Shown here in pieces: positions 2,361 to 61,345 of a stretch of 64,000 nt of DNA. Below the pieces are notes generated by a model, which saw nothing but the letters and a program-made list of their open reading frames with translations, was not told the origin of the DNA and searched no databases. The number at the start of each line of letters is the position of its first letter. The first letter of the stretch is position 1. Source of the stretch: Leptotrichia sp. oral taxon 498 (GTDB lineage Bacteria; Fusobacteriota; Fusobacteriia; Fusobacteriales; Leptotrichiaceae); NCBI RefSeq assembly GCF_002240055.1, contig NZ_CP016753.1, forward strand, positions 1,736,001-1,800,000. Direction: 5' to 3'. Both the position numbers and the translations under genes were made by a program.

Positions 2361-2488
2361 ATATTGTTATTGAAAAATATCGAATTATAATTTTATCTTA
2401 GAGAGGAGTTTTTATTAAGTGTGTTAGAACACTCGTGGCTTTAGCCATGAGATGAATAACACCAACATTGAAAATATTGCTTTAAAAT

Positions 2489-2517
2489 TTGCAATATTAC
2501 TAATTTTAGAGTATAAT
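2489..2517 (+). promoter_or_regulatory. Promoter inside the IS605-type element
   Basis: TTGCAA, a 17-base spacer and TATAAT, pointing toward the right end of the element and treB. It would start a transcript near 2524. Confidence 0.6.
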
Positions 2518-2523
2518 ATATTT

Positions 2524-2700
2524 GGGTTTAAAATTAATATACAGATAAAAAGTAGCAGTGTAGACATAATGTCTTATCTAGTAGTGGCTATTGTGGACTA
2601 GCCAAAAAGAATAAGGATTTTAAAATCAAACTTCTTAGAAGATAACTTACTTTTTCAGTTATCTTATGAAGCTCTTGACTTTTAGTCGTGAGTAGTTCAC
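2524..2700 (+). ncRNA. Candidate omega-RNA-like structured transcript
   Basis: The predicted transcript from the internal promoter has no coding potential and several hairpins: GACAT/ATGTC, GGCTA/TAGCC, AGATAACT/AGTTATCT (8 perfect pairs), and the terminal hairpin before GAGTAGTTCAC. In TnpB systems the guide RNA runs out of the transposon right end, and the bases just outside form the guide. Here the guide would be the first codons of treB from 2701. This is inferred from position and shared end structure, not from a matched RNA model. Confidence 0.42.
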
Positions 2701-4246
2701 GAATAAGTATCATGATGATGCCGTTAAGTTATTAAAACTTGTCGGCGGAAAAGAAAATGTCGTAGCAGTAACTCATTGTGCGACTAGAATGAGATTTTCT
2801 CTTGCGGATGAGAAAAAAGCAAATCCAAAAGAGATAGGACAGCTTGATTCTGTTAAGGGAACGTTTACTAATGCGGGACAGTTTCAAGTAATTGTCGGAA
2901 ATGATGTTGGAGACTTTTATAAGGAATTTATAAATGTGTCAGGTATTCAAGCGGCTTCAAAAGAAGATGTAAAAAAAGCCGCAATGAAACAGCAGCCATT
3001 ATTACAAAGAATGGTTGCACATTTAGCGGAAATTTTTGTGCCGTTAATTCCAGCATTGGTAGCTGGAGGGCTTATGCTTGGTATTGGAAACTTTTTACAA
3101 GCTAATTTACCATTTTTAGGTGGAAAATCATTTAAAGATATTTCGGAATTAGCAAGAGTTATTTTATTCTTTACAGACTGGATTGGTGGAGCTGTATTCG
3201 GAATGCTGCCAGTATTAGTTTGCTGGTCTACAGTTAGAAAGTTCAAGGGGAACGAAGCTCTTGGTATTGTGCTAGGATTGATGTTAGTAGCAGGAACTAT
3301 GTTAAATGCCTATGTTTACGGTGATATTTCTTCAAGTAAGGAATTGGCAGGTGCAGGAGTTCACCTAAAAGATATTTTAATTAATGGTTCAGCTAAATAT
3401 GCTCATTTATTTGGTGGAAAAGATCCGTTTAACATTGAGGCAGGAAAGCATGTGTTAAATTTAGGATTTACAAAATTAATGTTAGTTGGATATCAGGCAC
3501 AAGTATTGCCAGCAATGTTTGCAGGAATTGCATTATGTTATATTGAAGGTTTCTTTAATAAGAGAACACCAGAAGTATTAAAATTAGTGTGGGTTCCATT
3601 TATTACATTGATAGTTACAGGATTCTTAACAATTTTATTCATTGGACCATTTGCTAGAACATTAGGAGAATGGTTAGTTGCAATATTTGCGTTCTTATTT
3701 AAGACACCGGGGCTAAAATATGTTGGAGCACTTTTATTTGGTTCAACTTATGCACCATTGGTTATAACAGGACTACATCACACATTTATAGCAGTTGATT
3801 TACAATTGGCGGCAGCTTCGGGTGGAACATTCATTTGGCCATTGATTGCACTGTCAAATATGGCACAATCAGGTGCAGTTTTTGCAACATACTTTATTTA
3901 CAAAAAAGATAAAAAACAAGAATCAGTATCGTTATCTTCAACTGTATCAGCTTGTTTTGGGATTACAGAACCAGCTTTATTTGGGGCAAACTTGAAATAT
4001 ATGTACCCATTTTATGCAGCAATAACAGCTTCAGCATTAGCAGCAGTTATTTCTACTGGATTTAACGTATTGGCAAATGGAATCGGAGTTGGAGGAATTG
4101 CATTAGCATTCCTATCAATTAAATTTGAAGGTGCTCATCAATTAGGATTCTGGTTAGCTTCAATAGTTGCTTTTGGATTGGCATTCGTATTGACATTTGT
4201 ATTCTCTAAAAATCCAAAATTAAACAAAGGAAGTTTAACAAATTAA
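2701..4246 (+). pseudogene. treB: PTS trehalose-type IIBC permease, start codon split by element
   Basis: The protein resembles TreB, which imports and phosphorylates trehalose. The frame is open from just before 2701: a IIB domain with the phospho-cysteine motif VTHCATRMRF, then VKGTFTNAGQFQV, a linker, and a IIC domain of about ten membrane segments with PLVITGLHHT, WPLIALSNMAQ and FGITEPALFG. No start codon precedes the IIB Cys in the present sequence; the first ATG (2789) lies after it. Bases 2414-2415 (AT) plus 2701 (G) would give ATG-AAT-AAG-TAT behind GAGAGGAG, encoding a 515-aa protein. So the gene is intact except for the insertion. No treC or regulator is adjacent. Trehalose is inferred from similarity to TreB. 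Confidence 0.85.
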
Positions 4247-25373: not shown

Positions 25374-25399
25374 AATTATACAATAATCAAATTAAATAA

Positions 25400-25533
25400 C
25401 TTATCAAGAGAGATATTAGGGACAGGCCCGTTTTGAGTATCCAGCAACCTGTATTTACAAGGTGCTAAATCCTGGCATTGAATGCGAAGATAAGAATTAT
25501 AATTCTCTTCCTAGCAGGAAGAGATTTTTTTTT
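25400..25533 (+). ncRNA. SAM-I (S-box) riboswitch with terminator
   Basis: The aptamer runs from CTTATCAAGAGAG (25400) to GATAAG (25489-25494), the two sides of P1. The conserved core is visible: AGGGACAGGCCC, CCAGCAACC, and AAGGTGCTAAATCCTGGCA. It is followed by an intrinsic terminator, CTCTTCCT/AGGAAGAG (25505-25523) and nine T. Known behaviour: SAM binding stabilises P1, lets the terminator form and stops transcription of the downstream gene, here SAM synthetase, giving feedback control. Confidence 0.95.
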
Positions 25534-58510: not shown

Positions 58511-59589
58511 TATATTTAACAAAAAGACAGCAAGAAGTCCAGGAATTATTGATAAACAAGACTTTTGGATGTGTCCGTTTTGTTTACAATACAATTTTGT
58601 ACACTGCGAATAAAATTTATGAAGAAACTGGAAAAAATAAAATAATTACACCTGCCAGTTTGAAGAATGAAAATCAATTTTTGAAAGAAGTAGACAGCTT
58701 GGCACTTGCAAATGCTCAATTGAATGTAAAACGATCGTTTACAAATTTTTTTCAGAAGAGAGCGAAGTTTCCAAAGTTCAAATCTAAAAAGACTAGTGTT
58801 AAAAGTTATACGACAAATTGTGTGAACAATTCGATACGAATTGAAGAAAATAAATATTTGATTTTGCCAAAACTGAAAAAAGTAAAATTGAAATATCATA
58901 GAGAAATACCAAAGAATTATAGAATAAAGTCGGTAACATTGACAAACAGTAATGGAAATTACTATGTTTCTGTTTTGACGGAATTTGAAAAAGAAATTCA
59001 AAAGGTAGCTAGTAAAGATAAAGTGATTGGACTTGATTTTTCAATGTCTGAATTATTTGTCAGTTCTGAAAACCAAAGGGCTGATTATCCAAGATATTTT
59101 AGGATGTTGGAGAAAAAATTGAAAGAATTACAAAAATCATTATCGAGAAAAGTGAAATTTTCTAAAAATTGGTATAAACAAAAAATGAAAATATCAAAAT
59201 TACATGAGTATATCAAGAATTGTCGAAGAGATTTTTTACATAAATTATCGAAAAAATTGTCTGAAATATATAATGCTGTGGTTGTTGAGGATTTGAATAT
59301 GAAAGGGATGATCCGGTCATTAAATTTTGGTAAAAGTATAGGAGATAATGGATGGGGAATGTTTTTGAGAATGCTTGAGTATAAACTGATGTTTTTAGGG
59401 AAACAATTTTTGAAGATAGATAAATGGTTTCCATCGTCGAAAACTTGTAGTAGATGTGGAAATGTTAAAGAGGAACTGAAATTATCAGAAAGAAGTTATA
59501 AATGTGAGTGCTGTGGAATTGAGATTGATAGAGATTATAATGCGGCACTGAATATAAGAGATATTGGAAAAGAAATGTTGAAATATTAG
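58504..59589 (+). CDS. tnpB: TnpB RNA-guided nuclease, start lost
   Basis: Transposon nuclease, ancestor of Cas12. The open frame from 58504 codes 361 residues and begins KIVYLTKRQQEVQELLINKT, the usual N-terminal region short of about five to ten residues. Seen: FGCVRFVYNT, RuvC Asp in VIGLDFSMSELFVSS, RuvC Glu in VVVEDLNMKGM, zinc cysteines in SKTCSRCGN and KCECCG, last RuvC Asp in DRDYNAALNI. All catalytic and zinc residues are present. No ATG/GTG/TTG is in the expected place; the first candidate is TTG at 58549, inside the conserved N-terminus and without a good ribosome site. So it may be silent or weakly expressed. Confidence 0.88.
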   Translation, partial: KIVYLTKRQQEVQELLINKTFGCVRFVYNTILYTANKIYEETGKNKIITPASLKNENQFLKEVDSLALANAQLNVKRSFTNFFQKRAKFPKFKSKKTSVKSYTTNCVNNSIRIEENKYLILPKLKKVKLKYHREIPKNYRIKSVTLTNSNGNYYVSVLTEFEKEIQKVASKDKVIGLDFSMSELFVSSENQRADYPRYFRMLEKKLKELQKSLSRKVKFSKNWYKQKMKISKLHEYIKNCRRDFLHKLSKKLSEIYNAVVVEDLNMKGMIRSLNFGKSIGDNGWGMFLRMLEYKLMFLGKQFLKIDKWFPSSKTCSRCGNVKEELKLSERSYKCECCGIEIDRDYNAALNIRDIGKEMLKY

Positions 59590-59700
59590 GAAATAAAGAA
59601 ACAGGGCAGGGACTGCCTGAAGAGCTTGGTAAATATATTTGGCTAACAAAAGCAGATACTTCCCAAGAAGCTCCCGCTTCTAAAGGCGGGAGTAGTTCAC
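59590..59700 (+). ncRNA. Candidate omega RNA at the tnpB element right end
   Basis: In TnpB systems the guide RNA comes from the 3' end of tnpB through the right end. Here 59620-59676 has CTTGG and CCAAG arms around a loop, then the GAAGCTC-hairpin-GAGTAGTTCAC end. The guide would be the bases after 59700, starting TAAAGCAAGATGAAACTAC. Assigned by position and end structure. Confidence 0.55.
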
Positions 59701-61198: not shown

Positions 61199-61244
61199 AA
61201 ATTATAAAAAATATTAAAAAATGAATAAATATAAATAAAGATAA

Positions 61245-61345
61245 AAACACAGTTCTGGTTGGTAGTCCAGACGCAGTAATGTAAGTAACCTGCCTCCTTA
61301 GGTTGTCCATTCTTTATTATAAATTTTTTTAGGGAGGCTGAAATT
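61245..61345 (+). ncRNA. yjdF-motif (azaaromatic) riboswitch
   Basis: The RNA directly before yjdF has two stable hairpins, TCTGG/CCAGA (61254-61271) and AACCT/AGGTT (61287-61304), each with an 8-base loop. The second loop is GCCTCCTT (61292-61299), which can pair base for base with the ribosome site AGGGAGGC (61331-61338), eight pairs with one G-T. Known: yjdF-motif RNAs precede DUF2992 genes in Firmicutes and respond to azaaromatic compounds, probably by freeing the ribosome site. Assigned by position and structure; not tested against the Rfam model. Confidence 0.7.

Follow-up and report, generated by a model that had tools for sequence, protein, structure and literature searches.

The treB locus and its divided start codon

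The window, by which we mean the whole stretch of 64,000 nucleotides analysed here (contig NZ_CP016753.1 of Leptotrichia sp. oral taxon 498, positions 1,736,001 to 1,800,000), contains a frame for treB, the PTS trehalose EIIBC component, at positions 2702–4246 on the forward strand, on which all features of this locus lie. The translated product, 514 residues without a start, is above the cut-off of NCBIfam NF008236 and has the Pfam EIIB and EIIC domains, with the phospho-Cys codon at 2777–2779. Upstream are a promoter-like site, TTGACT-16-TATAAT (2333–2360, 11 of 12 positions in a consensus scan), in a region that is conserved in the related genome G012, and the treB ribosome-binding site, GAGAGGAG (2401–2408), a motif that also precedes the ATG in G012. 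This ribosome-binding site is now parted from the gene. The pentanucleotide TTTAT (2411–2415) is followed directly by a 285-bp mobile element (2416–2700), as the initial annotation had proposed, so that the AT of the former start codon forms the last two bases of TTTAT, codon 2 of treB begins at 2702 and 2415|2701 is the predicted joint. The annotation had also noted that treB has no start codon before its phospho-Cys, and the frame bears this out: a TAG stop at 2693–2695, inside the element, is followed by TTC ACG AAT AAG ... TGT, and no ATG, GTG or TTG occurs between this stop and the phospho-Cys, the first in-frame ATG being at 2789, past the Cys. Since the ATG is split (AT|G) and the ribosome-binding site is separated, full-length TreB is unable to start at a normal codon. 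No second treB homologue was found at E≤1e-40 in the source genome, a complete assembly of 2.15 Mb in a single contig (G000). The insertion almost certainly silences the genome's only trehalose-importer gene, and weak initiation at the junction ACG, a non-standard codon in place of the ATG, is conceivable.

An empty form of the site is present in G012, among genomes that are each the single representative of a species. There, the sequence matches the predicted joint, GAGAGGAGTTTnTAT|GAATAAG, but for one mismatch in the stretch, and treB starts ATG-AAT-AAG, exactly as had been predicted from joining 2415 to 2701. The joined window flanks and G012 are identical at 63 of 65 bases, one mismatch falling in the target (TTTCTAT in G012 versus TTTTTAT in the window) and one further upstream. 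A differing treB start in relatives, named beforehand as evidence against this joint, did not occur; in G002, G008 and G010, treB has ATG followed by xxx-AAG-TAT-CAT. The empty site thus comes from another species, and the one-contig source assembly contains the occupied form alone.

Across the 13 genomes of the genus, treB is clearly present and intact in 4 (G002, G008, G010 and G012), is interrupted by the element in the source genome, has lost a large internal part in G003 and is without a close homologue in the 7 others, while a gene for trehalose-6-phosphate hydrolase is above the family cut-off in 13/13. Loss of treB is tolerated and the gene is dispensable in the genus, a point that the earlier reading had missed. 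The G003 gene (L213/L064) keeps its start and lacks approximately residues 48–356, so that treB was lost there independently. In the source genome, on the other hand, treB is otherwise undamaged, with 508/515 residues identical to G012 and a dN/dS of 0.03, and was thus functional until recently; as treB is otherwise intact and is the sole copy here, the insertion looks recent.

A protein-less element with an omegaRNA-like right half

The ends of the element are fixed by its further copies. Five were found, two in G002 and three in G003, that are 93–98% identical to the window copy and have the same ends; all six follow TTTAT, finish with TAGTTCAC and a TCAC terminus and are free of a target duplication, and the G002 and G003 copies are flanked by unrelated DNA on both sides. 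The predicted ends, 2416 and 2700, are therefore upheld, and copies with other ends, which had been named in advance as contrary evidence, are not seen among the five. The search of the source genome that had been suggested gave no further copy at high identity, the 285-bp element being single there. Three properties place the element in the IS200/IS605 group. First of all, the target is a T-rich pentanucleotide that is not duplicated, as seen from the six copies, their unrelated right flanks and the G012 empty site. Second, folds and pair counts give subterminal imperfect palindromes at both ends and no terminal inverted repeats. Third, as in non-autonomous members, there is no protein gene, with no open reading frame of at least 50 amino acids inside 2416–2700. 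The element is a non-autonomous IS200/IS605 derivative of the PATE/MITE type, in which TTTAT is the target and left cleavage motif (the presumed TAM) and TTCAC (2696–2700) the right cleavage site, the last bases of which are shared with resident TnpA/TnpB elements; IStrons end in TTCAG. Elements of this kind are already known (PATE-like elements, PMC7290912), and this one stands out by its striking insertion site and by the putative omegaRNA described below.

At the left end, an imperfect palindrome (2421–2462) is formed by an outer stem, GTGTTA/TAACAC, and an inner hairpin, CTCGTGGC-TTTA-GCCATGAG. As single-stranded DNA, it folds more stably than shuffled sequences (z −3.8), and compensatory changes relative to the plasmid copies and IStrons give a covariation of 0.378 versus 0.237 in shuffles, with 0/500 shuffles as high. 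Its core, AGAACA-CTC...GAGATGAAT, is common to the TTTAT-inserting elements found here. The right-end hairpin, CTCTTGACTTTTAGTCGTGAG (2672–2692), is helix 6 of an alignment, A2, with IStrons of the same genus, so that the IS200/IS605-style hairpins of the initial annotation have support at both ends. Between the ends lies a predicted promoter-like site, TTGCAA-17-TATAAT (2489–2517, 10 of 12 in the consensus scan), that is directed to the right end; it is not kept in every copy, being weakened in one and partly deleted in another (copies G003b and G002b).

The right 130 bp of the element (2570–2700) align in A2 with the tnpB 3′ end and the right-end omegaRNA region of the Leptotrichia IStrons. 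The consensus fold of this region is intact in 99.8% of the alignment cells, one helix has 4 compensatory pairs, and double-change cells number 36 versus 14.7 in shuffles. A model of the region, R1, whose rows included the region itself, has 5 matches in the source genome, this one among them. The description of the element as gene-less holds for protein genes, but its right half shows homology to an omegaRNA, a relationship that had also been missed. Weak hits of the element to Rfam families, IMES-1 among them, are on the opposite strand and far below gathering scores, and were taken as chance.

The reRNA/omegaRNA of TnpB in ISDra2 consists of the corresponding region and approximately 16 nt of flanking sequence (PMC8612924). 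By the same layout, the bases directly 3′ of the right end, GAATAAGTATCATGATGATG (2701–2720), would be the guide, and these are treB codons 2–7 with flanking bases. If transcribed, the element probably carries a guide RNA aimed at repaired treB, next to TTTAT. Within 1 mismatch, the present genome has no target site for this guide, because the element interrupts it, and excision would recreate it; a second TTTAT-plus-guide site is likewise lacking from the source genome at this limit, and the guides of the other element copies are unrelated to that of treB. Three intact IStron-type TnpBs are resident, with the RuvC-like motifs GIDLGI, NE(D/N)F and ADCNGALN, behind TTTAT-targeted left ends. That one of them may accept the element's omegaRNA is suggested by approximately 70% sequence similarity and the shared fold.

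Other gene-less elements occur in the source genome. L079 (G000:C1:1643868-1644180) is a 313-bp IStron derivative in which a short middle piece links the left end to the terminal portion of tnpB, the omegaRNA and the right end. L075 (G000:C1:484550-484805), of 256 bp, belongs to a third family that also targets TTTAT; the parent of L075, which has both TnpA and TnpB, occurs in G006 and G012. L075 retains a promoter-like site, together with the right-end region situated after tnpB in that parent. L076 (G000:C1:1317920-1317964) is, like L065, a 45-bp remnant in which the 5′ half of the left palindrome is joined directly to the right end (TAAATAGTGCAAGAACACTC...GGGAGGTTCAG), and both would seem to be solo hairpins that persisted after loss of all between.

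Possible reversibility of the insertion

The events that we propose, with high confidence in the account as a whole, are a recent insertion of a PATE/MITE-type element at the treB start, its possible excision by TnpA and a possible opposition of TnpB and omegaRNA to the restored allele. The non-autonomous element inserted 3′ of TTTAT, splitting the ATG as AT|G. TnpA supplied in trans and acting on the two hairpins could, as in ISDra2, remove it precisely and bring back ATG-AAT-AAG. The restored site would carry TTTAT-GAATAAGTATCATGATG, the predicted target of TnpB and omegaRNA; provided that the omegaRNA is produced and that a resident TnpB accepts it, this TTTAT-GAATAAG... site would be cut by the complex. 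TnpB with its reRNA cuts beside the target motif, and it has been proposed that cleavage of the donor joint by TnpB leads to the element being copied back (PMC8612924). Such a cut at treB would favour repair that copies the element back; the insertion would then be maintained actively and would not be a free switch. The selective value likely goes to the element, not to the host.

How far the insertion can be reversed depends on TnpA. A tnpA/tnpB-deleted ISDra2 derivative leaves tetA precisely at 2×10^-3 with TnpA in trans and at <4.8×10^-9 without it (PMC2806898); switching treB on by TnpA in trans is thus sound in principle, and excision that restores treB is plausible by this analogy. The initial annotation had asked for a search for tnpA, and four intact TnpA genes are indeed present, but TTAAC is the motif behind which their elements insert, and the source genome yielded no TTTAT-linked TnpA. 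These elements have the right-end foot and cleavage site GAG-TAG-TTCAC in common with the 285-bp element, while the left-end core differs (AGAAG versus AGAACA). TTTAT-targeted elements with their own TnpA, of 134 aa versus 135 aa for the resident TnpA, were seen in G006 and G012 only. The TTAAC-type TnpA stays a candidate, on the other hand, because it is the sole type in the three genomes that hold the 285-bp element (G000, G002 and G003). The reading of the locus as an IS605 switch, put forward in the initial annotation, is thus upheld in the element type, precise ends, empty site and treB start, and falls short in the transposase, none being linked to TTTAT here.

Elsewhere in the window, at 59353–59700, is a TTAAC-family tnpB (361-aa open frame) with the right end GGGAGTAGTTCAC and no TnpA detected adjacent; the family has about 20 tnpB copies in the source genome to 4 TnpA genes. 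The window also contains an azaaromatic (yjdF) riboswitch (61231–61326) and a SAM riboswitch (25398–25496), both above Rfam gathering scores.

Since all resident TnpA genes belong to the TTAAC-inserted family, the cell may lack a transposase that matches the element, which would leave the insertion frozen. An element that no transposase in the cell moves, in a treB that is decaying as in G003, is the strongest rival, and one to which we give a substantial chance that falls somewhat short of even; it shares the element's identity with our proposal and differs on reversibility only. It accords with the missing TTTAT-linked TnpA, with the single high-identity copy in the source genome, and with the large internal deletion in the treB of G003 and the want of a close homologue in 7 other genomes of the genus. 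The 98% identity to copies in two other species, however, points to recent movement, and treB shows no other damage.

Two further readings grant movement, and both are unlikely. The bolder one, which we put forward tentatively, is a locked switch: TnpA excision would open treB, and an IStron TnpB with the element's omegaRNA would cut the reopened start codon and copy the element back, so that the element, with no protein encoded, might spread through intact treB alleles in the manner of a small gene drive. The other, at best a slim prospect, is a simple reversible switch, in which TnpA in trans excises often enough to give a mixed treB-off/treB-on population. Precise ends and an empty site agree with it, as do a treB frame that is intact after past purifying selection, the four TnpA genes, the elements of which have the right-end foot and TTCAC in common with this one, and the confinement of the three element-holding genomes to the TTAAC type. 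The resident TnpA elements, however, use TTAAC and AGAAG rather than TTTAT and AGAACA, the complete one-contig assembly contains the occupied form only, and omegaRNA plus TnpB would oppose the restored allele.

Recruitment of the omegaRNA and its treB guide as a regulator of treB-like sequences elsewhere is very improbable: the guide position, the promoter-like site and the intact TnpBs would suit it, but the genome offers no second TTTAT-plus-guide site within 1 mismatch, the other copies' guides are unrelated, and cutting is to be expected rather than regulation because the RuvC-like motifs of the TnpBs appear intact. An intron-like IStron derivative that is removed from the mRNA and leaves treB functional is scarcely credible. 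The left end (about 82% identical over 60 bp) and TTTAT target are those of same-genus IStrons that carry a group I intron, but the element has no group I match, while L069 and L070 match RF00028 (5e-12 and 2e-10), an intron core does not fit in 285 bp, and the final base is C, whereas group A IStrons terminate in the G of TCAG (PMC4227781). With neither group I core nor 3′ TCAG, an IStron or self-splicing identity was rejected, and with no group I match and a TCAC end, the element is very unlikely to be removed from the RNA.

The locus offers a clean example from nature of an IS200/IS605 element that encodes no protein and lies inside a start codon, and a relative provides the empty site. We predict that proteins encoded elsewhere would be needed both to restore treB and to cut the restored allele under RNA guidance. 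Should a resident TnpB use the element's omegaRNA, the restored allele would be cut, the treB 'on' state opposed, and the element would resist being switched off. Gene-less elements of three families in the source genome keep the region that encodes or adjoins the omegaRNA in intact relatives, which suggests that guide RNAs alone may suffice for persistence, parasitising the TnpB of others.

Relatives and known systems

A DNA search for a gene-bearing parent with the same ends found none in 98 genomes of the phylum, in 96 genomes of the order (searched with the longer version from the plasmids), in viral contigs or in phages, and an element-specific 25-mer had no match in contigs of named organisms, a set that may omit near relatives. 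The closest relatives outside the genus are on Fusobacterium plasmids, as elements of 362 bp (NZ_CP056008.1, NZ_CP060113.1) and 346 bp (NZ_CP056019.1) that are 82–90% identical over 96–99% of the 285 bp and have the same ends; unlike the Leptotrichia copies, which have lost them, they contain about 77 extra bases between the promoter-like site and the omegaRNA. Two of these three plasmids are typed mobilizable, and a further gene-less relative is on one uncultured viral contig. Exchange of the element by plasmids among oral Fusobacteriota is likely.

Gene-less elements whose ends are quite different were noticed to share a conserved stretch (AACTGAATATATnnnGTTnAGGCnAGT...GCCTTGTAAAATATTCAC, about 77 nt) behind the promoter-like site, in L186:3001-3362, L207 (about 2500–2580), L192, L193 and L198, on Fusobacterium plasmids, a viral contig and in other Fusobacteriota. 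The inner hairpin of this stretch covaries, the stretch has no Rfam match, and a weaker match occurs on Paraclostridium sordellii plasmids.

Three known systems can be compared with the treB element. The Leptotrichia IStrons (LbISt1, PMC4227781; L068 and L069; the resident L077, L078 and L080) have the same TTTAT target, AGAACA-CTC...GAGATGAAT core and right-end omegaRNA fold, but they possess a group I intron and TnpB and have a TCAG end; the 285-bp element has neither and ends in TCAC. The PATE-like element of Halanaerobium hydrogeniformans (PMC7290912) is likewise a short IS605 derivative that keeps the left-end hairpin, the last tnpB bases and the whole right end without tnpA or tnpB. Its sequence is different, and for the treB element, on the other hand, a gene start is struck and a promoter-like site and omegaRNA fold have been checked. 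Finally, ISDra2-113, with tnpA and tnpB deleted (PMC2806898), similarly lacks transposition genes, lies inside a gene at a T-rich pentanucleotide and leaves by precise restoration with TnpA, but it is an experimental construct with the target TTGAT, for which the cognate TnpA is known.
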